Below are positions 3,576-12,801 of a stretch of 12,801 nt of DNA, one piece after another. The stretch is taken from NCBI GenBank assembly GCA_024681875.1, contig JAILAA010000075.1:1-12801 (forward strand). The letters run 5' to 3'. Within the stretch, counting starts at the first letter, position 1. Every line of letters begins with the position of its first letter. The notes under the pieces are model-generated. The model saw nothing but the letters and a program-made list of their open reading frames with translations, did not search any database and was not told where the DNA came from. Position numbers and translations under genes: made by a program. Source of the stretch: Prevotella sp. (lineage in GTDB: Bacteria; Bacteroidota; Bacteroidia; Bacteroidales; Bacteroidaceae).

Positions 3576-5699
3576 TCATAATCCAATGGTAAGGGTGAGT
3601 TTATAGTTACGACCCGGCATGGGATAGCGGGGAATATGCTCGTATTGCTCATCCAGCACGTCGCAGACCTCGAGGCATAGGCCAAGAGAGGTGAGAGGTG
3701 AGAAGTGAGAGGTGAGAGATTTGGGCAATGTGCAAGAGAGCTTCGCATCGATGTTCTGATAGGGTTCAAGAATGTCCTCGGGGTCGGCATAGCTCCACAT
3801 GCGCTCGCCTACGTGCATATAGGAAACGGTGAGCGACAACTCCTTCCATGCAGCTACGCCTGTCAGAGTATAGGACAGCTCCGGTGAGTAGCAGATGGGC
3901 TTGTTGTAGGTGTCCTCATCGTCAGGGTCAGTGCGGTTGAGGTCTTTCTGCCACGTCAGCGAGGTAAGCAGCGAGAAGCGCCAGTCTTTCGTGTCGTAAT
4001 GTCCCTGTGCCGTGGCATTGAGGCCTCGACAGAAGGTGTAGCCGTAGTTCAACATCGTCCAAGTGTAGGTGCCCTTCAGCGGCAGGCAAACGATGCGGTT
4101 CTCTATCTTGTTCTGGTAGACGTCGGCCTGAAGGTCCATTGACCATTGACCGTTGACCATTGAACGTTGACCATTGAACGTTGAATGTTGTCTTTTTGCC
4201 CAGTGATATTCCAATCCGATGTTCCACTGCTTCGTATACTCTGGCTTGAGGTTGCGGTTGCCCACCTGCGTGTAGTAGAGGTCGTTGAGCGTGGGGGCAC
4301 GGAATATCTTCTTGTACCACGCACGCATCGTCACGCCGTACAGCGTATAGGCCACTGACATGGCTGGCGTCCAGCGGTCCAGTGGGTCAGCGGCGCCTAC
4401 TCGGGTGAAGGTAAAGTCATGATAGTGCTGGTGCAGCATGGACGCGGCGGCCTGCACGCCATGCAGGTTCATCTGTGCCGCCACCACTTCTTTCTGGTCC
4501 AGGCGGAACACGTTGTCAAAATGCTTGAGGTCGGCACGCAGTTTACTGTACCTGACATCGTAACTGGTTGAGAGCGAGAGCCACGGCCAGGGCGTATAAC
4601 CGTAGCAGAGCGCGCCGTATCCGTCTTCCTGCCGATAGTGGTTGTTGACACGCGCCGTGTTCTGGTTCTCAGGGTAGTCAGTGCAGTAGCGCAGGTATTC
4701 GTTGGTGTACTTCGCATTGGCTTTTACACGGTGATGGCCCAGAAACTCGTGCTGGAACGAGGCTTGCACAAAGAAGTCACGGTCCCACTCACGGCCCACG
4801 TTGACATATTTGTCGCTCAAACGGCGGACAATGCCGCCAGGGCAGCCGCGCTCAGAATCATAATAATAAAGATGTGTAGCGAAGCCTCCCTTGAACAGTG
4901 CCCCCTCGATGCGCCCGTAACGGATGTCGCTGTTGGCACGGCGCCCTATGGTATCCTCATAATCAGAATGATAACGGAAAGGATAGTCGCCACGCGAATC
5001 GCAATACTCACCATCTACGAAGCCACGCAAGCCATTGGCCATTGACCATTGGCCATTGACCTTCGCCATATAGGTAGAGAACGAGGCACGGCGCAGCTGC
5101 ACCGACAAGGAGTCTTTCGTAGGCCGACGCGTTGTGAGGTAAACAGTGGCGCCAGAGGCGTATTCCGAAGCCGACTGGCAGTTGTCGAGCTTGTTGGCGT
5201 TGTAGAGCGACACCGTCTCCAAGGAAGAGAGAGAGAACTTCCCCAGATCGACGGTGCCGTTCTGCGCGTTGGTAATGCGGATGCCGTCGACGTAGATACC
5301 CACATGCTGGGCGCCCATCGAGCGCACGTTGACGGTCTTCAAACCGCCCAATCCGCCATAGTCCTTGATTTGCACGCCCGAGAAATACTTCAGCGCATCG
5401 GCCACGGATGTGGTGGACAGAGCTCTGAGGTCAGCGCCGCGCAACGTCTGCGACGTGGCGATGGGCCGCTTGCCATACACCTCCACCTCGCTGAGTGTCT
5501 GTGCCGTGTCGGCAAAGAGGCCTCGCTCCTGGTGCCTGCTTGCCGCGGGTACTATGTCAAACGGTGCGGCAGCCTCAGACTGGAGCGAGGCGTTCTTCTT
5601 TTCATCTGTGTTCAGAGTTGAATCCTTCAACTCTTCTCCCCATAGCGTCTGGGTGAAGAGAACCAGCGATAACCAACCAATGAGCCATCTTCTACTCAT
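3576..5699 (-). CDS. btuB: TonB-dependent vitamin B12 outer-membrane receptor BtuB
   Basis: The product is 707 residues and complete. It starts with a signal peptide (MSRRWLIGWLSLVLFTQTLWG). A TonB-box-like stretch (LSEVEVYGKRP, residues 69-79) leads into the plug domain (about 75-190) with typical motifs: VADALKYFSGVQIKDYGG, VNVRSMGAQHVGIYVDGIRI and LSSLETVSLYN. The rest is a 22-strand-type barrel, with the family motif FRAPTLNDLYYTQVGNRNLKPE near residue 470 and a final strand YPMPGRNYKLTLTIGL ending in a hydrophobic residue. Cobalamin is the likely substrate because the gene is the first one behind a cobalamin riboswitch and is followed by a BtuG-like protein. It imports substrate across the outer membrane using TonB-ExbBD energy. 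Oddly, three tracts of 7-bp tandem repeats lie inside the coding sequence (residues about 214-223, 504-522 and 661-672); all are read through in frame and probably fall in barrel loops or strand edges. Substrate assignment is inference from context and from the family. Confidence 0.9.
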   Translation of the reverse strand: MSRRWLIGWLSLVLFTQTLWGEELKDSTLNTDEKKNASLQSEAAAPFDIVPAASRHQERGLFADTAQTLSEVEVYGKRPIATSQTLRGADLRALSTTSVADALKYFSGVQIKDYGGLGGLKTVNVRSMGAQHVGIYVDGIRITNAQNGTVDLGKFSLSSLETVSLYNANKLDNCQSASEYASGATVYLTTRRPTKDSLSVQLRRASFSTYMAKVNGQWSMANGLRGFVDGEYCDSRGDYPFRYHSDYEDTIGRRANSDIRYGRIEGALFKGGFATHLYYYDSERGCPGGIVRRLSDKYVNVGREWDRDFFVQASFQHEFLGHHRVKANAKYTNEYLRYCTDYPENQNTARVNNHYRQEDGYGALCYGYTPWPWLSLSTSYDVRYSKLRADLKHFDNVFRLDQKEVVAAQMNLHGVQAAASMLHQHYHDFTFTRVGAADPLDRWTPAMSVAYTLYGVTMRAWYKKIFRAPTLNDLYYTQVGNRNLKPEYTKQWNIGLEYHWAKRQHSTFNGQRSMVNGQWSMDLQADVYQNKIENRIVCLPLKGTYTWTMLNYGYTFCRGLNATAQGHYDTKDWRFSLLTSLTWQKDLNRTDPDDEDTYNKPICYSPELSYTLTGVAAWKELSLTVSYMHVGERMWSYADPEDILEPYQNIDAKLSCTLPKSLTSHFSPLTSLGLCLEVCDVLDEQYEHIPRYPMPGRNYKLTLTIGL
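3686..3718. repeat. Heptamer tandem repeat (GAGAGGT) inside btuB
   Basis: Units of GAGAGGT occupy 3686-3692, 3693-3699, 3700-3706 (GAGAAGT) and 3707-3713, with a partial unit to 3718. On the coding strand this is the CTCTCAC-type repeat that gives a Leu-Thr-Ser-His-Phe-Ser-Pro-Leu-Thr-Ser stretch. The unit length is not a multiple of three. Confidence 0.85.
4136..4190. repeat. Heptamer tandem repeat (CCATTGA) inside btuB
   Basis: There are nearly eight 7-bp units in a row: CCATTGA, CCATTGA, CCGTTGA, CCATTGA, ACGTTGA, CCATTGA, ACGTTGA and ATGTTG. The coding strand reads this as the 7-residue periodic sequence STFNGQRSMVNGQWSM. It interrupts the receptor between the barrel strands EYHWAK and DLQADVYQNKIENR, where a loop is expected. 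Confidence 0.9.
5032..5059. repeat. Heptamer tandem repeat (CCATTGR) inside btuB, second site
   Basis: Four 7-bp units follow one another: CCATTGG, CCATTGA, CCATTGG, CCATTGA. They belong to the same family as the tract at 4136-4190, 840 bp away. The coding strand reads them as VNGQWSMANG near residues 214-223, just after the plug domain. Confidence 0.85.
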
Positions 5700-5745: not shown

Positions 5746-5789
5746 TTGAATCGTGGCCTGCCTTCCTAACCCCAGAGGCTCATGCAGGA

Positions 5790-5965
5790 CATCCACACCG
5801 TGGCAGGTCTTCTGGCTCGTCGCTCGGACTGCAAGCGTCTTCCCGAAAATCTCAGTGACGTTATGCTTGCGCCGTTCAAAGGCGACTCACAGCTGCGGGA
5901 CAGCAGGGGATTCACACCCCTTTCCCTTTTGATCGGGCTCCAAAGGGCCCAAACCACCGTGTTTG
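5790..5965 (-). ncRNA. Cobalamin riboswitch controlling btuB
   Basis: Read on the minus strand, this region has the landmarks of the cobalamin aptamer. The conserved core at 5889-5926 reads GGGAAAGGGGTGTGAATCCC, then CTGCTGTCCCGCAGCTGT. About 70 nt further on is the B12 box AGCCAGAAGACCTGCC (5802-5817). The order and spacing fit the class. The riboswitch starts close to the predicted transcription start and ends about 90 nt before the btuB ATG, so it should lower btuB expression when cobalamin is plentiful. A GGCAGG segment at about 5757-5762, downstream of the aptamer, could pair with CCTGCC of the B12 box and form part of the switch. That pairing is inference; no obvious intrinsic terminator follows, which favours control of translation. 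The exact ends are approximate. Confidence 0.93.
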
Positions 5966-5971
5966 CGAGTG

Positions 5972-6002
5972 CAAAGGTACGACAAACGAATGAGATGGCA
6001 AA
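5972..6002 (-). promoter_or_regulatory. Bacteroidota-type promoter of the B12 operon
   Basis: On the minus strand, TTTG (5999-6002) is followed after 19 nt by TACCTTTG (5972-5979). This matches the Bacteroidota primary sigma consensus TTTG - 19 to 21 nt - TAnnTTTG. Transcription would start near 5965, immediately before the riboswitch. Confidence 0.8.
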
Positions 6003-6152: not shown

Positions 6153-8051
6153 ATGATGGACTCTCAAGAAAACGCACTCGTCAATGCTTCGCCAGTCGAA
6201 GAGACAGTAAACAAAGTAGAAAAAGTTGAAGAACAGGCTGTTCCTGTGGTTTCGGAGGATCCGGAGACCCCGGAAATCCCGGAAGCACCGGAGATTTCAG
6301 AAAACCCTGAAGAAGCTCCGGAAGCCCCAGCCGCTCCCAAGACCTACGCCACAAAGGCCGAGGTGCTTGACCGTGTAAAAGAGCTGGCCCACGGAGAGGA
6401 GATGCCTCAGAAGGATGAGGTAGAATACCTTAAGACCGTCTTCTACAAATTGCACATTGCCGAGCGCGAGGCCCGCCTCAAGGAATATATCGAGGGCGGC
6501 GGCGACCCAGAGACCTACCAGATAACACCGGACGAAGCCGAAGAAGCCTTCAAGGCTGAGATGGGCGTCATCAAGGAGCGTCGCCAGCAGTTATTCCGCG
6601 AGCAGGAGGCTGAGAAGGAAGAAAACCTGAAGAAGAAGCTCGCCATCATCGAGAAGATCAAGGGAATGGTCACCTCGCCCGAGGAGGCCAGCAAGACATA
6701 CCAGGAATTCAAGGCCCTGCAGCAGGAGTGGCGCGACATCAAGGCAGTGCCTGCAGAAAAAGCCAATGAGCTATGGCGCAACTATCAGCTCTATGTGGAG
6801 CAGTTCTATGACCTGCTGAAGCTGAACAGCGAAGCCCGTGAGCTGGACTTCAAGAAGAACCTTGAAGCCAAGACGAAACTCTGCGAGGCCGCCGAGAAGC
6901 TGGCCGACGAAAGCGACGTCATCAGCGCCTTCCACCAGCTGCAAAAGCTGCATCAGGAATATCGCGAGATAGGCCCCGTGAGCAAAGAACTGCGTGAAGA
7001 GGTTTGGCAGCGCTTCAAGGCCGCCAGCACCGTCATCAACAAGCGTCACCAGCAGCACTTCGAGGGTCTGCGTGCCCGCGAGGAAGAAAACCTGCAGAAG
7101 AAGACGGCCCTTTGCGAGAAAGCTGAAGCCATCCTGGCCGAGGAGAACAAGGGCAGCGCCGACTGGGAGCGCCATACACAGGAGATGATTGCCTTACAGA
7201 CAGAATGGAAGACCATCGGCTTTGCACCGCAGAAAATGAACGTGAAGATTTTCGAGCGTTTCCGCGCCGCCTGCGACACGTTCTTCACCAGCAAGGGTGA
7301 GCACTTCCGTGCCGTCAAGGACACCTATAAGGAGAACGCCGAGAAGAAGCGTGCTCTCATTGAAAAAGCCAAGGCCCTGCAGGACAGCACCGAATGGCGC
7401 TCTACCGGCGACAAGCTCATCGCCCTGCAGAAAGAATGGAAGACCATCGGCATGGTGCCCAAGAAGCTGGGCGACCAGCTGTGGGAGGAGTTCCTCGGTG
7501 CCTGCAACAAGTTCTTCGAGGCCCGCAACGCTGCCGGCGCCGGCCAGCGCGGCGAAGAGCGCGAGAACCTGCAGAAGAAGCGTGACGTTATCGCCAAAAT
7601 CAAGGCCGTAGCCGAGGAGGGTGGCGACAACATCCAGACACAGGTGCAGCAGCTGGTCGAGGAATACAACTCCATCGGCCATGTACCGTTTAAGGAGAAG
7701 GACAAGCTCTACGAGGAATATCATGAGGTATTAGACAAACTGTACAAAGACCTGAACATCAGCGTACAGCGCCGCCGCCTGTCGAAGTTCAAGGACAACC
7801 TGAAGCAGGTGGCCGAGCGTGGCGAAGGCGCTCTCGACAGCGAGCGTGCTCGCCTAGTGCGCCAGCTCGACCAGATGAAGCAGGACGTGCAGACCTACGA
7901 GAACAACCTCGGCTTCCTCAGCGCCAGTTCGAAGAAGGGCAACTCGCTCATCGACGAGATGAACCGCAAGATGCAGAAGCTGAAGGACGACATGCAGCTG
8001 GTGAAGGACAAGATCAAGGCCATCGACCAGGAGAACGCCGCCAAAGAATAG
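6153..8051 (+). CDS. Five-repeat DUF349 protein
   Basis: The product is a 632-residue, highly charged, helical cytoplasmic protein with no signal peptide. Residues 1-65 are disordered and acidic, with a Pro-Glu-rich run (PEAPEISENPEEAPEAPAAP). Five DUF349 helical repeats follow, at about 157-225, 232-305, 311-385, 393-460 and 468-538, each marked by a Gln/Glu-Glu-Trp/Tyr-Arg/Lys-x-Ile-Gly-x-Val/Ala-Pro motif (QEWRDIKAVP, QEYREIGPV, TEWKTIGFAP, KEWKTIGMVP, EEYNSIGHVP). A C-terminal coiled coil spans about 560-628. The function of DUF349 is not established; proteins of this shape are common in Bacteroidales. The gene starts with two consecutive ATGs (6153 and 6156) and either could be used. It has its own promoter box and ends at a strong terminator, so it appears to be a monocistronic unit independent of the T6SS genes downstream. 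Confidence 0.93.
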   Translation: MMDSQENALVNASPVEETVNKVEKVEEQAVPVVSEDPETPEIPEAPEISENPEEAPEAPAAPKTYATKAEVLDRVKELAHGEEMPQKDEVEYLKTVFYKLHIAEREARLKEYIEGGGDPETYQITPDEAEEAFKAEMGVIKERRQQLFREQEAEKEENLKKKLAIIEKIKGMVTSPEEASKTYQEFKALQQEWRDIKAVPAEKANELWRNYQLYVEQFYDLLKLNSEARELDFKKNLEAKTKLCEAAEKLADESDVISAFHQLQKLHQEYREIGPVSKELREEVWQRFKAASTVINKRHQQHFEGLRAREEENLQKKTALCEKAEAILAEENKGSADWERHTQEMIALQTEWKTIGFAPQKMNVKIFERFRAACDTFFTSKGEHFRAVKDTYKENAEKKRALIEKAKALQDSTEWRSTGDKLIALQKEWKTIGMVPKKLGDQLWEEFLGACNKFFEARNAAGAGQRGEERENLQKKRDVIAKIKAVAEEGGDNIQTQVQQLVEEYNSIGHVPFKEKDKLYEEYHEVLDKLYKDLNISVQRRRLSKFKDNLKQVAERGEGALDSERARLVRQLDQMKQDVQTYENNLGFLSASSKKGNSLIDEMNRKMQKLKDDMQLVKDKIKAIDQENAAKE

Positions 8052-8081: not shown

Positions 8082-8126
8082 GTTTCCTGCAGAGAAATCA
8101 CGGTTTCTCCGCAGGAAACTTTTTTT
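8082..8126 (+). terminator. Intrinsic terminator of the DUF349 gene
   Basis: GTTTCCTGC (8082-8090) pairs with GCAGGAAAC (8111-8119), and after a single A/C mismatch GAGAAA (8092-8097) pairs with TTTCTC (8104-8109), leaving a TCACGG loop. Seven T follow at 8120-8126. It lies 30 bp after the stop codon and separates the DUF349 gene from the T6SS operon. Confidence 0.9.
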
Positions 8127-8350: not shown

Positions 8351-8358
8351 TAACTTTG
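8351..8358 (+). promoter_or_regulatory. Bacteroidota -7 box for the antiterminator-T6SS operon
   Basis: TAACTTTG matches TAnnTTTG 49 bp upstream of the ATG at 8407. A TTTG at 8331-8334 gives a spacer of 16 nt, shorter than the usual 19-21, so the -33 box is uncertain. The predicted leader is only about 40 nt. Confidence 0.55.
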
Positions 8359-8406
8359 TACCGATTTTGACTCTTCAGAATCAACCTCGAAATGTAAAAG
8401 GCAGAT

Positions 8407-9093
8407 ATGAGCACATTGACTAATGTGGATATCAAAGCCCAACGTGCTGAGAATAAGCGTAATGAAAGAATCAGCGCAGCCATGAAAGGCATCAGCACCA
8501 TCCCCAAGGCCGCCAGTTCAAAGACCGGGGTGTCGGTGGAATATGCACATGACCCAAACAAGAACTGGTATGTGGTGCGCGCATCATACGGGCGCGAGCG
8601 CCGCGCACATGACTATATAGTTGAGGATGGCACTTACACTTACCTGCCCATGCATCTGGTATACAAGGTCAAAGACGAGAAGCGGATACGCACAGAGGAA
8701 GTGCTCGTACCCAACATACTCTTCATCTACGCCACACGCGAGAAGGCCGACGAATATGTCAAGGCAACGGCACAGCTGGACTATCTCACCTACTACTATG
8801 ACCATTTTAACACCGACAACGGCAAGAATCCGCCACTGGTGGTGCCTGGTAATGAGATGTACAACTTCATGCTGGCCACCTGCACCGACAGCGAGCACGT
8901 CCGAATGGTCAGCGCAGATCAGTGTCACTTCAAGAGAGGCGACACCGTGCGAGTCATCGGCGGCCCATTCATCGGCGTCGAGGGCCGCGTGGCACGTGTG
9001 GCCGGACAGCAGCGTGTCATCGTCACCATCAACGGTCTGTGCAGCGTCGCTACGGCCTATGTGCCCACTGCCTTCCTCGAAACCATCAATTAG
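8407..9093 (+). CDS. UpxY/NusG-family transcription antiterminator at the head of the T6SS operon
   Basis: The product has 228 residues. Residues 1-50 are a basic N-terminal extension. The NGN domain begins at NWYVVRASYGRERRAHDY (residues 53-70) and includes the family's YLPM and VPNILFIYAT motifs (to about 165). A KOW domain follows, FKRGDTVRVIGGPFIGVEGR (175-194), with VIVTINGLCSVATAYVP after it. This pattern matches the UpxY group of specialised NusG paralogues, which in Bacteroides act as processive antiterminators and are normally the first gene of a capsular polysaccharide operon. Here no glycan gene is in view and no UpxZ-type inhibitor follows. The next gene is tssH, 51 bp away with no terminator in between, so the two are probably co-transcribed. 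The inferred job is to let RNA polymerase read through the long T6SS operon. It is unlikely to be housekeeping NusG, given its divergent sequence, N-terminal extension and location. Confidence 0.88.
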   Translation: MSTLTNVDIKAQRAENKRNERISAAMKGISTIPKAASSKTGVSVEYAHDPNKNWYVVRASYGRERRAHDYIVEDGTYTYLPMHLVYKVKDEKRIRTEEVLVPNILFIYATREKADEYVKATAQLDYLTYYYDHFNTDNGKNPPLVVPGNEMYNFMLATCTDSEHVRMVSADQCHFKRGDTVRVIGGPFIGVEGRVARVAGQQRVIVTINGLCSVATAYVPTAFLETIN

Positions 9094-9144
9094 CAATCCG
9101 TATAGAACAAGAACAACCAACTATTAACCCATAAACATATTTAA

Positions 9145-11580
9145 ATGGACAAGTACACAGAACTTTTAGCGAATCTTCCATTCGACCTGCTGCACATCGC
9201 ACAGTCGTTTGCCACCGACAACAAGTCGCCGAAGATTGAACCTGCCCACATGCTGCGTGCGCTGCTGCACAAAAGTGCCGGGCTCGTGAACTACATCGAG
9301 GACACCCTCGACGAGGATTACTACTACATGGTGGACTGGGCCGACATGCGCATGAAGCAATGCGAGAAGTCACCCTACCCCATGAAAGGCATCGAGCTGT
9401 CGCACGACGCACAGAACGTAGTGAAGGAAGCTCAGGACATCGCCGAGAAAGCCGGTTTGGACGCCATCGACGGTCCCTGCCTCTTGGCAGCCCTCGTCAG
9501 CCCGGGTGTAGGCTTCTCGTATGAGCAGTTGAAGACGCTGGCCATCTCTGCCGACAAGATCAAGAAGCAGATAGGCAGCGGCGCTCCTGTCAAGCCTGCC
9601 GCTGGCACCATCTCAGCAGGCGGCGGTGCCTCGAAGGCTGCCGCAGCAGCTGCCGACAGCGGTTTCTTTGTCGACATGCTGGCCGAGCTGCCCGAGGAGG
9701 ACGTAGTAGGTTTCGACGATGAAGTGCGCTCGATGACCGAGGTGCTGGCACGTAAGGACCGCGCCAACCTGCTCATCGTGGGCGAGACTGGCGTCGGCAA
9801 GACCAGCCTCATCCACGCCATCCTGCAGCGCATCCGCGCCGGAAAGGTGGCCGCATCGCTTGAGGCCCTTCAGCCCTACGAGCTCGACCTAATCGCACTC
9901 AGCCAGGGCGTCAGCTACAAGGGCGAGATTGAAGACCGCTTCAAGCAGGTCACCGAACAGCTGATGGCACAGACACAGCCGCTGCTCGTCGTCGAGAACT
10001 TCCACCGTGTGGAGGACAAGCAGTCGACACTGAACGGCATCCTGCCCGGCCTGAAGAAACTGCTGTCGAAGAACCAGTTGCAGGTGGTCATCACATCTAC
10101 CGTCGACGGCTACACCAAGGACATCGAGAAGGACAAGGAGCTGACCAGCTTCTTCGAGAAGATTACCGTGGAGGAGCCTAACGAGGAACAGGCCATCGCC
10201 ATCATCCAGGCAAAACGCAAGGGCTATGAGGACTTCCATCACATGCCCATCGAGGACGAGGTGCCTGCCGAAATCGTCCGTCTGGCTAAGCGCTACATGC
10301 CGGACCGCCGTCTGCCGTCATCGGCACTCGACCTGCTCGACCGCGCCATGGCATCGACAAAGATCAACAACGAAATGGCTGCCCTTGCAGAGGAAGGTGC
10401 AAACGTCACCATCGCCGAGAAGCTGGAGAAAGACGCCGTGCGCGACGTCGTAGCCAAGATGACCGGCATACCTATGGGTAACATCCAGAGCGAGGAGCGC
10501 GAGAAGCTGGGCAACGCCGAGCAGATTCTGCATCAGCGCGTCGTAGGCCAGGGACACGCCATCAAGAGCATCCTCGACGCCATCTTCGAGAGCCGCTCAG
10601 GCTTGAACAAGAAAGGACAGCCCATGGGCTCGTTCTTCTTCCTCGGCCCGACGGGTACAGGTAAGACCGAGCTGGCCAAGAGTCTGGCCAACTTCCTCTT
10701 CGACGACGAGACGGCCATGCTACGCTTCGACATGTCGGAGTACAAGGAAGAGCACTCTGTAGCACTGCTCTACGGCGCACCTCCGGGATACGTCGGCTAT
10801 GAGGAGGGCGGTCTGCTGGTGAACCAGATCCGTCAGCACCCCTATTCCGTCGTGCTGTTCGACGAGATTGAGAAGGCCCACAAGAGTGTCTTCGACCTCT
10901 TCCTGCAGATTCTCGACGAAGGTAAGCTGCACGACCGTCTGGGACGCGTCGGCGACTTCTCGAACTCACTCATCATCTTCACGTCAAACATCGGATCAGA
11001 CTATATCTTCAAGTCATTCGATGCAGGCAAGGTGCCTACACACGACCAGCTCCTTGAGGTGATGCAGGGCAACTTCCGTCCGGAGTTCCTGGCCCGCCTC
11101 ACCGAGATTGTGCCGTTCTCGCCCATCACCACCGAGATGATCAACCGCATCTTCGACATCCACATCAAGAACCTGCTGAAGACGCTCAACGAGCAGAACA
11201 TCAAGCTGGTCATCGACGACACAGCCCGTAAGTATGTCACCAGCGTAGGCTTCAACGCCCACTACGGCGCACGTCCTATCCTCGGCATCATCCGTAAGGA
11301 GATTCGCCGCCCGTTGTCGAAGCTCATCATCGCAGGCACCATCACGCCAGGCGACACCGTCACGATGAAGTTCGATGAGGAGAACAAGCAGATACAGTGG
11401 GATATTGACAGCCCCGACGGCGAGGAAACAACGGTACCAGGCAATCCTGCCCAGCCCAAGCCCGAACCCGTAGAGGCCCCGGAAACTCCTGAGGCACCTG
11501 CTGCACCAGAGGCACCAGAAAAGCCCAAGAAAGGCAAGAAGGCCAAGGCCGCCGAAGAGGAAGCTCCCGCTGAGGCATAA
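9145..11580 (+). CDS. tssH: T6SS sheath-recycling AAA+ ATPase TssH (ClpV)
   Basis: The product is 811 residues, HSP100 class with two AAA+ domains. It disassembles contracted TssB-TssC sheath so that it can be reused. Residues 1-145 are the double-helical-repeat N-domain, followed by an Ala/Gly linker (150-172). The first ATPase domain has Walker A GETGVGKT (213-220) and pore loop SYKGEIEDRF, but the Walker B position reads LLVVENFH (280-287) instead of hhhhDE, and the usual arginine-finger region reads SFFEKITVEEP with no arginine. The second domain is intact: Walker A GPTGTGKT (501-508), Walker B VVLFDEIEKAH (569-579), sensor 1 TSNIGS, FRPEFLARL and the sensor-2 motif GAR (708-710). The middle domain is short, unlike ClpB. 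The C-terminus (764-811) is a Pro/Glu/Ala run followed by lysines. Identity as TssH rather than ClpB or ClpA rests mainly on the adjacent tssB and tssC. Confidence 0.9.
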   Translation: MDKYTELLANLPFDLLHIAQSFATDNKSPKIEPAHMLRALLHKSAGLVNYIEDTLDEDYYYMVDWADMRMKQCEKSPYPMKGIELSHDAQNVVKEAQDIAEKAGLDAIDGPCLLAALVSPGVGFSYEQLKTLAISADKIKKQIGSGAPVKPAAGTISAGGGASKAAAAAADSGFFVDMLAELPEEDVVGFDDEVRSMTEVLARKDRANLLIVGETGVGKTSLIHAILQRIRAGKVAASLEALQPYELDLIALSQGVSYKGEIEDRFKQVTEQLMAQTQPLLVVENFHRVEDKQSTLNGILPGLKKLLSKNQLQVVITSTVDGYTKDIEKDKELTSFFEKITVEEPNEEQAIAIIQAKRKGYEDFHHMPIEDEVPAEIVRLAKRYMPDRRLPSSALDLLDRAMASTKINNEMAALAEEGANVTIAEKLEKDAVRDVVAKMTGIPMGNIQSEEREKLGNAEQILHQRVVGQGHAIKSILDAIFESRSGLNKKGQPMGSFFFLGPTGTGKTELAKSLANFLFDDETAMLRFDMSEYKEEHSVALLYGAPPGYVGYEEGGLLVNQIRQHPYSVVLFDEIEKAHKSVFDLFLQILDEGKLHDRLGRVGDFSNSLIIFTSNIGSDYIFKSFDAGKVPTHDQLLEVMQGNFRPEFLARLTEIVPFSPITTEMINRIFDIHIKNLLKTLNEQNIKLVIDDTARKYVTSVGFNAHYGARPILGIIRKEIRRPLSKLIIAGTITPGDTVTMKFDEENKQIQWDIDSPDGEETTVPGNPAQPKPEPVEAPETPEAPAAPEAPEKPKKGKKAKAAEEEAPAEA

Positions 11581-11585
11581 CCCAT

Positions 11586-11612
11586 AGGGGCCTTTGACCA
11601 AATGAGGCCCCT
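11586..11612 (+). terminator. Intercistronic hairpin between tssH and tssB
   Basis: AGGGGCCT (11586-11593) pairs exactly with AGGCCCCT (11605-11612) across an 11-nt loop. Only three T follow directly, then a further run of six T at about 11629-11634. It looks like a weak or partial intrinsic terminator within the operon, or an mRNA-stability hairpin for tssH. No promoter box is seen between it and tssB at 11659. Confidence 0.6.
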
Positions 11613-11658
11613 TTCAACAAAAACCCTATTTTTTATTAACCAATAAAACCAAACAATT

Positions 11659-12114
11659 ATGGCAAGAAAAACTGTTATTTCGAAAGTGCTCGATGTCGAA
11701 GCACAAGACGGCATCATCGAGTTCCCGCAAAACCGAGCTCTCTATGCTGACCAGTTCACTGACGAGGCTCCCCAGTCGGATGAGGACCGCGAAGGTTTCA
11801 AGGCCAAGAGCATGAAGGACGTCTTTGAGCACTACCAGCCCTCAAAGAAGGATGTCGCCCTCGAGAACGAGGAAGGCGGCGCAGTGTTTGAGGACTTCGA
11901 CTTCAAGTCTGTGAAGGACTTCGAAGACGATGCTCTTATCGCCAACAGCGGACTGATGAGCGCTGCCAAAGGCAAGATCGATGCCTACAATAGCGTCATC
12001 CGCCAACTGGAGAAGAACAAGAGCCTACGCAACGCCCTGAAGGACGATGCAGCCAAAGGCAACCTGAAGAACGCCCTCAAGGCCCTCCTGGCTGAGATTG
12101 AAGCAGCTGAGTAA
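11659..12114 (+). CDS. tssB: T6SS contractile sheath small subunit TssB
   Basis: The product has 151 residues. The diagnostic part is FEDFDFKSVKDFEDDALIAN (residues 77-96) followed by a helix KIDAYNSVIRQLEKNKSLRNAL. This matches the TssB/VipA family arrangement of a phi-x-phi-x-S/G-phi-x-DF-x-P/D strand followed by a helix ending in a lysine/asparagine-rich turn and LR-x-x-L. The N-terminal 60 residues are acidic and divergent from proteobacterial TssB, as in other Bacteroidota T6SS. Order tssH-tssB-tssC on one strand supports the call. TssB pairs with TssC to form the contractile sheath in the cytoplasm. It follows tssH by 78 bp, with the hairpin at 11586 in the gap. Confidence 0.85.
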   Translation: MARKTVISKVLDVEAQDGIIEFPQNRALYADQFTDEAPQSDEDREGFKAKSMKDVFEHYQPSKKDVALENEEGGAVFEDFDFKSVKDFEDDALIANSGLMSAAKGKIDAYNSVIRQLEKNKSLRNALKDDAAKGNLKNALKALLAEIEAAE

Positions 12115-12165
12115 AGTTGAAAAATTTAAAAATTAAAAAGTTAAAACATTAAACCATAGAATATT
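12115..12165. other. AT-rich spacer between tssB and tssC with A/T repeat
   Basis: This 51-bp gap is nearly all A/T and contains an AAAAATTTAAAAATTAAAAA-type periodic stretch. It holds no hairpin with GC pairs and no clear promoter box, so tssB and tssC are probably translated from one transcript. The low structure may help ribosome binding, since Bacteroidota often use A-rich leaders instead of a Shine-Dalgarno sequence. Confidence 0.5.
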
Positions 12166-12801
12166 ATGGCAGCAGAAGAACTGAAACAAGAAGAACAGGG
12201 CCAGGCCCTCGAACTTCGCGAGAAAATAGAAAACCCGGGACAACTTTTGCAGGACAGCCTCGGCGGACTGGACAAGTTCGGCGGCTTCCAGCTGCTCAAG
12301 GGCCTCATCAAGGGCGTTGAGAACATGGATCCGCGCCGCAAGGCCGTGAAGAACATCTTCCTTGGCGACGCTTCCTATGCAGAGGCTCGCAAGAAGCTGA
12401 AGAACGAGCTCGAGCTCTGGGTCGACATCTTCGAGGATGGCGCTTCCGACCCCATGGAGATCATCGAGAACTGCAAGGAGAAGCTGGCCAAGACCGAGAC
12501 GAACCTGAAGAACAACCTCTTCACCGTACACGACGAGGTGCGCAAACTGGAGATTACCTACCGCGCACTCGACTCCTTCTTCGCCAACGCCGGACAGGGC
12601 AAGATTGACTGCCTCACCCTGATGAACGTGAACAAGGAGGAGCTGGAGTATCACGACTCTGAGGACACACTGGCCATCCGCGACGAGCTGGAGCGCTACT
12701 ACGACCGTCTGAGCCTGAAGAACAACTACTCGCTGCTCATCGTGCCCGGATACATCGGCGATGCCAACACCATCCGCATGTGGGCCGACACGGCTTACCG
12801 C
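12166..12801 (+). CDS. tssC: T6SS contractile sheath large subunit TssC, N-terminal part (3' end outside window)
   Basis: The ATG at 12166 opens a frame that runs to the window edge, giving 212 residues without a stop. The sequence fits the Bacteroidota-type TssC (DUF5458). It has an N-terminal helical region with GGLDKFGGFQLLKGLIKGVE and PRRKAVKNIFL, a charged helical stretch around residues 85-125, and then the start of the conserved core, VRKLEITYRALDSFF (about 126-140). This core is equivalent to the LEatWRGL motif of proteobacterial TssC. The KNNYSLLIVPGYIGDA strand follows near the edge. It assembles with TssB into the sheath around the Hcp tube. It lies 51 bp after tssB on the same strand. 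Remaining T6SS genes are expected beyond 12801 but cannot be seen. Confidence 0.88.
   Translation, partial: MAAEELKQEEQGQALELREKIENPGQLLQDSLGGLDKFGGFQLLKGLIKGVENMDPRRKAVKNIFLGDASYAEARKKLKNELELWVDIFEDGASDPMEIIENCKEKLAKTETNLKNNLFTVHDEVRKLEITYRALDSFFANAGQGKIDCLTLMNVNKEELEYHDSEDTLAIRDELERYYDRLSLKNNYSLLIVPGYIGDANTIRMWADTAYR

Follow-up and report, generated by a model that had tools for sequence, protein, structure and literature searches.

The stretch of DNA considered here, hereafter the window, comprises the 12,801 nucleotides at positions 1 to 12,801 of contig JAILAA010000075.1 from the Prevotella sp. assembly GCA_024681875.1. It carries upxY, a gene encoding a NusG paralogue of the UpxY family, followed on the same strand by the type VI secretion system (T6SS) genes tssH, tssB and tssC (Table 1), and its probable role in the expression of these genes is the subject of this analysis. 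An earlier note, drawn from the letters of the window alone, had placed such a paralogue directly 5' of the T6SS genes, with no terminator and only 51 bp before tssH, behind an independent promoter and a strong terminator isolating the upstream gene. These anatomical statements were all recovered, the promoter as a putative one.

The UpxY protein and the T6SS genes

The window protein passes the curated family model NF033644 (E 3.7e-40, cut-off 100 bits) and fails both the RfaH model TIGR01955 (43.5 bits for a cut-off of 144.5) and the LoaP model NF033641 (31.6 bits for a cut-off of 125). The Pfam NusG domain is recognized at 38.2 bits (cut-off 22.2), and KOW remains just below threshold (21.3 for 22.3 bits). 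The best AlphaFold2 model reached a pLDDT of 85 and a pTM of 0.81, the other four ranging from 71.5 to 36.7, and it matched NusG and RfaH chains of the PDB with a best E of 1.9e-7 and TM values, relative to query length, of about 0.3-0.45. Together, the NusG domain, the marginal KOW score and the fold match were counted as an NGN-KOW architecture. An identical protein occurs on two contigs of a large protein set, and the nearest genome relatives are rumen Prevotella-type metagenome-assembled genomes.

The surroundings of upxY are those of the first gene of a long operon: an upstream terminator, a putative promoter box beginning at position 8351 and, in L004, a close relative continued by L189, about 27 kb or more of co-directional genes after upxY (loci and genomes are designated here by L and G numbers). 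The box conforms to the pattern TAnnTTTG, which we take to be the Bacteroidetes-type -7 box. Its spacing to the upxY ATG is 56-59 nt across L001-L006, and a sigma-70 promoter scan had no entry at this place. The hairpin of the upstream terminator was reported by a simple terminator scan on the minus strand only. In the gap separating upxY from tssH, neither a -7 box nor a terminator was detected.

The window TssH scores below the TIGR03345 cut-off (461.9 for 884.95 bits). The next gene has no match in Pfam or NCBIfam and no credible match in the PDB (best E 0.19); it is called TssB because of its place and because a TssB-group profile matches a gene upstream of TssC in 16/16 GA-type loci, described below, at 42-97 bits (adjoining TssC in 15 of them and 1.7 kb off in L130). 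With TssB recognized through profile and place, the TssB/TssC sheath and the TssH ATPase are found together. The class to which the locus belongs is regarded as a T6SS because L004/L189 encodes, past the end of the window, TssD (Hcp) in three open reading frame (ORF) readings, two of which overlap, as well as a Phage_GPD/Phage_base_V (VgrG-like) protein and a DUF4280 protein, the latter presumably PAAR-like. As regards the baseplate and membrane complex, four of the ten L004/L189 genes scanned had no Pfam match.

Table 1. Coordinates of the features of the window around upxY and the T6SS genes
Feature	Position	Strand	Basis or remark
DUF349 gene	6153..8051	+	Pfam DUF349; upstream flank, outside the operon
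Intrinsic terminator 3' of the DUF349 gene	8082..8126	+	Stem-loop 8082-8119, T run 8120-8126 (T7), dG -21.5
Putative promoter -7 box TAACTTTG	8351..8358	+	Pattern TAnnTTTG, 56 nt 5' of the upxY ATG
Putative 5' leader, ~42 nt	8365..8406	+	Weak hairpin (-3.4 kcal); transcript start guessed
upxY, UpxY-family NusG paralogue, 228 aa	8407..9093	+	NF033644 137.6 bits, predicted fold
upxY-tssH gap, 51 bp	9094..9144	+	Without promoter box or terminator
tssH, ClpV-like AAA+ ATPase, 811 aa	9145..11580	+	Pfam AAA+, TssH tree
Hairpin between tssH and tssB	11586..11612	+	-16.6 kcal, no adjoining T run
tssB, sheath small subunit	11659..12114	+	Place and profile
tssC, truncated by the window end	12166..12801	+	PF17541, 154 bits

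Linkage of upxY and tssH in related genomes

A scan with a UpxY alignment over one genome per species (84,980 species) confirmed 138 relatives, the best 80 of which were kept as loci. In 8 of these best 80, tssH lies just 3' of the UpxY gene (tblastn), and a ninth locus, L002, stops within the first tssH codons. For the remaining 71 loci, plus-strand genes further downstream that encode at least 120 aa were considered, the first being readable in 68 loci and the second in 65. The most frequent products of the first genes were sugar transferases (14/68), followed by short-chain dehydrogenases (9), ketoacyl synthases (5) and proteins of polysaccharide export (4); the second genes included ketoacyl synthases (9/65) and radical SAM proteins (8), among others. 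This group of UpxYs therefore heads many kinds of operons. A few second genes encode TIR (3/65), SIR2-like (2) or caspase-like (1) proteins, and SrfB/Virul_Fac proteins are encountered in operons headed by related UpxYs (SrfB probably in L042, judging from gene size).

The reverse search used TssC as bait in two samples, the family of genome G002 (399 genomes) and its genus (398 genomes), which share five TssC-bearing genomes (G002, G003, G130, G186 and G328). In the family, 33/399 genomes carried TssC above the cut-off, at 35 places. Sixteen of these places are of a type in which tssH lies away from tssBC or beyond the fetched stretch, and the UpxY profile had no match in the stretches fetched around them. 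We take these loci to be of the GA type, from their TssC score and from recall rather than by comparison with a published GA locus. In G316, a UpxY is located 13 kb 5' of one TssC, in the same orientation. The other 19 places show the order tssH-tssB-tssC, and six have a UpxY above the NF033644 cut-off immediately 5' of tssH (G002, G003, G130, G041, G314 and G106). G002 and G003 had originally been reached through UpxY, and the count without them is 4/17. In the TssH tree, 9 of the 19 places fall in the branch of the window, including all six with UpxY.

In the genus sample, TssC exceeded the cut-off in 62/398 genomes, at 65 places that were sorted by TssC score into a window type (29 genomes, 31 places including some fragments and doubles), a mid class (28) and a GA class (6). 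Among the 29 window-type genomes, 25 have an NF033644 match on the same strand 2.9-3.2 kb 5' of TssC, which is just before tssH. Three others (G493, G708 and G465) have a contig end within tssH or less than 90 bp from it, and UpxY thus stands directly 5' of tssH in 25 of the 26 informative genomes. Five of the 25 were first found through UpxY (G002-G005, and G616, which shares the contig of L005); without them the count is 20/21. All these UpxYs are above the NF033644 cut-off except the copy of G443 (L213), which is frame-broken. The 26th genome, G449 (L217), has kept a long leader before tssH, followed by what reads as an N-terminal remnant of upxY, a reading of our own that was scored by no profile. 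In the mid class, UpxY was present at 1/28 places (G006, itself found through UpxY; G531, listed among these places, is probably a GA fragment), and in the GA class at 0/6. The upxY-tssH gaps have a median of 36 bp, and a -7-type box occurs in 1/32 of them. In this T6SS class, and in one genus, the linkage of upxY is near-universal; a lack of such conservation among relatives, one of the outcomes named by the earlier note as speaking against its proposal, was not observed.

Some arrangements depart from this layout. In G176 (L188), UpxY heads a co-directional run that reaches tssH about 15 kb downstream; a dozen or so genes lie between the two, some of them looking, from their first residues only, like kinase, phosphatase and FHA proteins. 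In L217, tssB and tssC are each matched twice within one T6SS locus.

Exchange of the leader and upxY in place

The DUF349 gene found upstream of the window operon is also the upstream neighbour in L001, L002, L004, L005, L006, L207, L209 and L210. Two of these loci, L207 and L210, carry a UpxY of another lineage (lineage A, below) directly 3' of this same gene, whose product is 86-88% identical to that of the window over the 378-385 residues fetched. Their T6SS proteins are close to those of the window (TssH 85%, TssB 89-93% and TssC 88-89% identity), whereas UpxY is only 29% identical. At the same TssH distance, UpxYs within one lineage share 64-65% (the window with L005, L006 and L209) or 70% (L207 with L210). 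At the DNA level, similarity between the window and L207/L210 stops at the end of the DUF349 gene and resumes 25-26 bp 5' of the tssH start codon, so that window DNA from 9119/9120 onward is kept even where the locus has another UpxY. Since both flanks are kept while UpxY and leader differ, the two were exchanged together, as a single cassette. This exchange in place provides the strongest argument for a UpxY being needed at the position before tssH.

UpxY lineages and TssH cores

The UpxY tree comprised 84 rows: 32 T6SS-linked UpxYs against a background of 40 of the 60 non-T6SS places above the cut-off in the family sample and 12 of the 71 non-T6SS loci. The frame-broken L213 was left out, as were L218 and L219, which are L061 and L046 again; L005 and L209, located on one contig, form two rows. 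The T6SS label changes seven times on this tree, five changes being forced by well-supported branches (6-8 changes in bootstraps), and an earlier tree with 12 linked UpxYs among 76 rows gave seven changes, six of them forced. Such changes may be gains or losses. The T6SS-linked UpxYs form several clades and not a single one, the grouping that the earlier note had suggested looking for. Lineage A, the commonest among T6SS-linked UpxYs, comprises 18 loci with ORFs of 182 to 224 residues, mostly without N-terminal extension, and joins two rows from outside the T6SS loci (94/96). The clade of the window is lineage B (100/99), lineage C groups L046, L061 and L059 (100/97), and L139, L140, L141 and L211 are single branches.

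The TssH tree (48 rows, without L003, L214, L218 and L219) places the lineage-B cores within a well-supported group of 11 (100/99), which also holds four lineage-A cores and one whose UpxY state is unknown. Lineage-B cores are even split by a lineage-A one, as L207 groups with L005/L006/L209 (100/97). The core of L059 lies among UpxY-less cores. T6SS loci have been shown to recruit UpxY repeatedly.

Leader RNAs

In lineage-A loci, a -7 box is located about 120-260 nt 5' of upxY in 17/18 cases, none being seen in L201. The leaders of this lineage share a hairpin, H1, with the motif RCTGGANNNCAGYRC, followed 66-90 nt later by a six-pair hairpin, H2, and then by TG[AT]CCCYC. The arms of H2 vary between loci and yet pair (CCACTA/TAGTGG, CTGCAA/TTGCAG, CCGCAT/ATGCGG, TCGCAT/ATGCGA). 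To test the pairing, a script counted base pairs at one set position 5' of TG[AT]CCC. Taking the best of several loop lengths, 13 of 17 loci had 6/6 pairs and four had five; with loops of 4-7 nt, 12 of 16 had six and four had five, so that 16/16 reached at least five pairs. At control offsets (-90 to +60, the nearest 8 excluded), at most 6/16 loci did so, and at single other positions five pairs or more occurred in 11% of cases. RNAalifold recovered H1 and not H2 from the alignment of lineage-A leaders, in which MAFFT displaces H2 in several rows. The leader alignments omit L203, nearly equal to L202, and L201, whose start motif was missed by the pattern.

A covariance model named R1 was built from 16 lineage-A leader sequences. 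Searched against 63 sources, it matched the 18/18 lineage-A T6SS loci (16 of them training rows, and L201 about 500 nt before upxY) and nothing else, the window remaining unmatched. In 200 genomes of the genus, R1 gave 26 matches in 22 genomes, 23 of which lie from -8 to 144 nt before a UpxY-model match on the same strand (two of these UpxY matches are below the cut-off, and one of the two has an in-frame stop). T6SS loci already used account for four matches, and 19 of the 22 others adjoin a UpxY. Sixteen of these non-T6SS cassettes were fetched and ten first genes were scanned (43 proteins aligned). The latter encode a glycosyltransferase, CpsB, UDP-glucose dehydrogenase (two), a Mfa2 fimbrial anchor, a PD40/LysM protein, a protein that is Wzy-like under the cut-off (29.5 for 31.7 bits) and three unmatched products. 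The R1 leader RNA thus also stands 5' of UpxY genes in capsule-type operons and in others.

A different, long leader is found in L046, L061, L139 and L141. It contains an intrinsic terminator, GTGGAA...TTCCACG followed by a T run, whose end lies about 50 nt 5' of upxY. This form is also legible in L213 and in the remnant locus L217; it is absent from L059 and L140, and L211 has a weak variant only. Upstream of the terminator, a shared leader piece GTTGTCTGTTC...AATGCNAGAGCC was seen in 12/86 leaders with a loose pattern (L046, L061, L139, L141, L213, L217, L012, L016, L017, L020, L028 and L026). GTTGTC might base-pair with the GACAAC of the terminator loop, and those of these leaders that were searched had no Rfam match. 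At gathering score, Rfam returned only a cobalamin riboswitch in three and one tRNA among eight sources that included no lineage-A locus; at E up to 1, eight sources, four of them of lineage A, gave a single sub-threshold miRNA match. The covarying leader RNA of these four lineage-A loci is therefore without an Rfam counterpart.

The window clade carries neither of these two leader types, and the terminator scan found no terminator or attenuator in the leader of the window. A conserved hairpin was considered for the short leaders of this clade: it is clear in L001, L002, L004 and L005, weak in the window and replaced by another predicted fold in L003 and L006, and is not claimed. The UpxY-less loci L132, L133 and L137 have a common hairpin leader ending in GGTGAAGTAA, about 100-120 nt before tssH, which may be a different control element.

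Relation to known systems

Published sources are cited here by PMC number. The UpxYs of Bacteroides fragilis capsule operons resemble the window protein in belonging to the same curated family and in being encoded by the first operon gene, behind a promoter and a leader. The window differs by its T6SS operon, by a short leader without terminator and by the lack of a UpxZ partner. T6SS genes come next instead of the glycan genes of the B. fragilis operons, which are a trait of the best-studied members and not part of the NF033644 sequence model; the earlier note had rightly seen no glycan gene. It had likewise seen no UpxZ-like inhibitor, and PF06603 matched in 0/34 T6SS-bearing genomes, with five matches in the positive control G240 and none in the other four of five controls.

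LoaP, which acts on antibiotic operons in Bacillus, is also a NusG paralogue that serves long operons. A leader hairpin and a terminator are present at its targets (PMC12691694), and the hairpins of lineage-A leaders and the terminators of L046, L061, L139 and L141 resemble these. The window protein belongs to a different phylum and fails the LoaP model. Enterobacterial RfaH, which has secretion and surface operons among its targets (PMC7819879), shares the NGN-KOW architecture and structural matches. In contrast to the window gene, rfaH is a stand-alone gene whose product acts in trans at ops sites. The T6SSs GA1-GA3 of Bacteroidales are, like that of the window, Bacteroidota systems with TssB, TssC and TssH. 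GA-type loci (16 family and 6 genus places, G186 and G328 being in both) have TssC scores of 716-768 bits, no UpxY beside tssBC, and a tssH that lies away from tssBC or beyond the stretch, whereas in the window class the gene order is tssH-tssB-tssC and TssC scores around 430 bits. A TetR-family gene has been predicted as regulator of the GA1-3 systems (PMC4714493).

NusG paralogues have been associated in general terms with 'capsular and TSS operons' (PMC7819879). Several resistance-gene operons located behind invertible promoters start with upxY, and the variable regions of some integrative and conjugative elements contain T6SS operons (PMC8748976). In literature searches whose coverage lacks most subscription papers and all bioRxiv preprints, no link between UpxY and T6SS was found, texts naming both treating them apart; a term search of PMC11204068 and PMC10781749 returned no NusG, UpxY or antitermination. 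What is described here is a known protein family in a new and conserved place, accompanied by an undescribed leader RNA.

Proposed function and alternatives

We consider it likely that upxY opens the T6SS operon of the window and that its product serves this operon as a dedicated, cis-acting elongation or antitermination factor comparable to RfaH and LoaP. Proteins of this family bind the elongating polymerase at their own leader and suppress downstream termination or pausing (PMC7819879, PMC7593976, PMC12691694). By analogy, transcription would begin just 3' of the -7 box and UpxY would be produced first; it would join the RNA polymerase transcribing its own leader, just like RfaH and LoaP at their respective leaders, and the modified polymerase would resist pausing and termination, allowing the operon to be read through over at least the ~27 kb seen in L004/L189. 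Co-transcription, loading at the leader and antitermination are what we infer. Where a terminator precedes upxY in the leader (L046, L061, L139 and L141, the window not included), the arrangement would constitute a self-feeding switch with positive feedback; the leader of the window has no terminator, and any effect of UpxY there must therefore fall on the operon body. That UpxY is dedicated to the T6SS, as first proposed from the window alone, gains support from the exchange of the cassette in place and from the decayed upxY behind the kept leader of L217, both of which argue that the gene serves this operon.

Several observations weigh against this interpretation. The classic target of UpxY, a terminator in the 5' leader, is missing from the ~42 nt leader of the window. 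L132, L133 and L137 form a UpxY-less group within the UpxY-bearing TssH branch, and this T6SS can therefore run without a UpxY. Terminator-like hairpins do exist within the operon, strong ones after tssD in L004, L005 and L140 and one after a second small gene in L059, the terminator scan finding none in L001, L006, L046, L061, L134, L139 and L141. Similar hairpins are present in the UpxY-less L133, L145, L146 and L147 and missing from the UpxY-bearing L001 and L006. Internal terminators thus do not discriminate between loci with and without UpxY and were rejected as its special target.

The lack of a terminator in the window leader and the unspecific occurrence of internal ones also favour a different mode of action, in which UpxY would still come first in the T6SS transcript and would work mainly by another route, such as RfaH-like ribosome recruitment, suppression of Rho-type polarity or regulation of its own leader, intrinsic terminators being little affected. 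RfaH itself has a weak effect on intrinsic terminators; it also abolishes Rho-dependent termination and serves as a translation factor (PMC7819879). Against this stands the intrinsic terminator between promoter and upxY in L046, L061, L139 and L141, as reported for the leaders of B. fragilis UpxYs (PMC7819879), and we regard this mode of action as unlikely. A role of UpxY in trans for a capsule locus or another glycan locus, with its place before tssH due to hitchhiking, is very improbable: many related UpxYs do head glycan or other operons, and 32 of the 33 T6SS-bearing genomes of the family sample have more than one match to the UpxY family (housekeeping NusG included), but the position is filled in 25/26 informative genomes, and by unrelated UpxY lineages. 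Scarcely credible, finally, is a functionless passenger inherited by T6SS loci from one ancestor, for in spite of its loss in L217, the broken frame of L213 and three close cores without UpxY, 24/25 copies are open frames above the family cut-off and replacement in place by an unrelated UpxY is not expected of a passenger.

Returning to UpxY as a dedicated elongation factor, a wider proposal, to which we would give an even chance, is that upxY and its own leader RNA constitute a portable transcription switch that Prevotella-type bacteria insert ahead of long operons of very different kinds (T6SS, capsule-type glycans and fimbriae). This switch would be swapped in place, the leader RNA (H1, the covarying H2 and TG[AT]CCCYC) would act as a lineage-specific loading signal giving each operon a private channel, and the T6SS would be gated by elongation rather than by initiation. 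T6SS control in Bacteroidota is largely open, and a private elongation factor that persists throughout a genus even as one version gives way to another provides a testable answer. If true, UpxY would move from capsule regulator to general switch for long operons. We know of no solution to the question of how UpxY recognizes its own operon, and the R1 leader RNA is a concrete candidate for how factors of this type find it.

Other features of the window

The sequence CGATT is often found directly 3' of the -7 box, in the window (8351-8376) and in 27 other leaders (28/81, counted with a loose box pattern and without a control set), and might be a start-site signal. On the far side of the DUF349 gene, a cobalamin riboswitch occupies positions 5785-5973 of the minus strand (105.4 bits), 5' of a gene for a TonB-dependent receptor (3576-5699, minus strand). 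The riboswitch also precedes the gene of a weakly DUF5074-like protein, and it is present in L001 and L004 as well. Riboswitch and receptor beside the DUF349 flank look like a vitamin B12 uptake locus.

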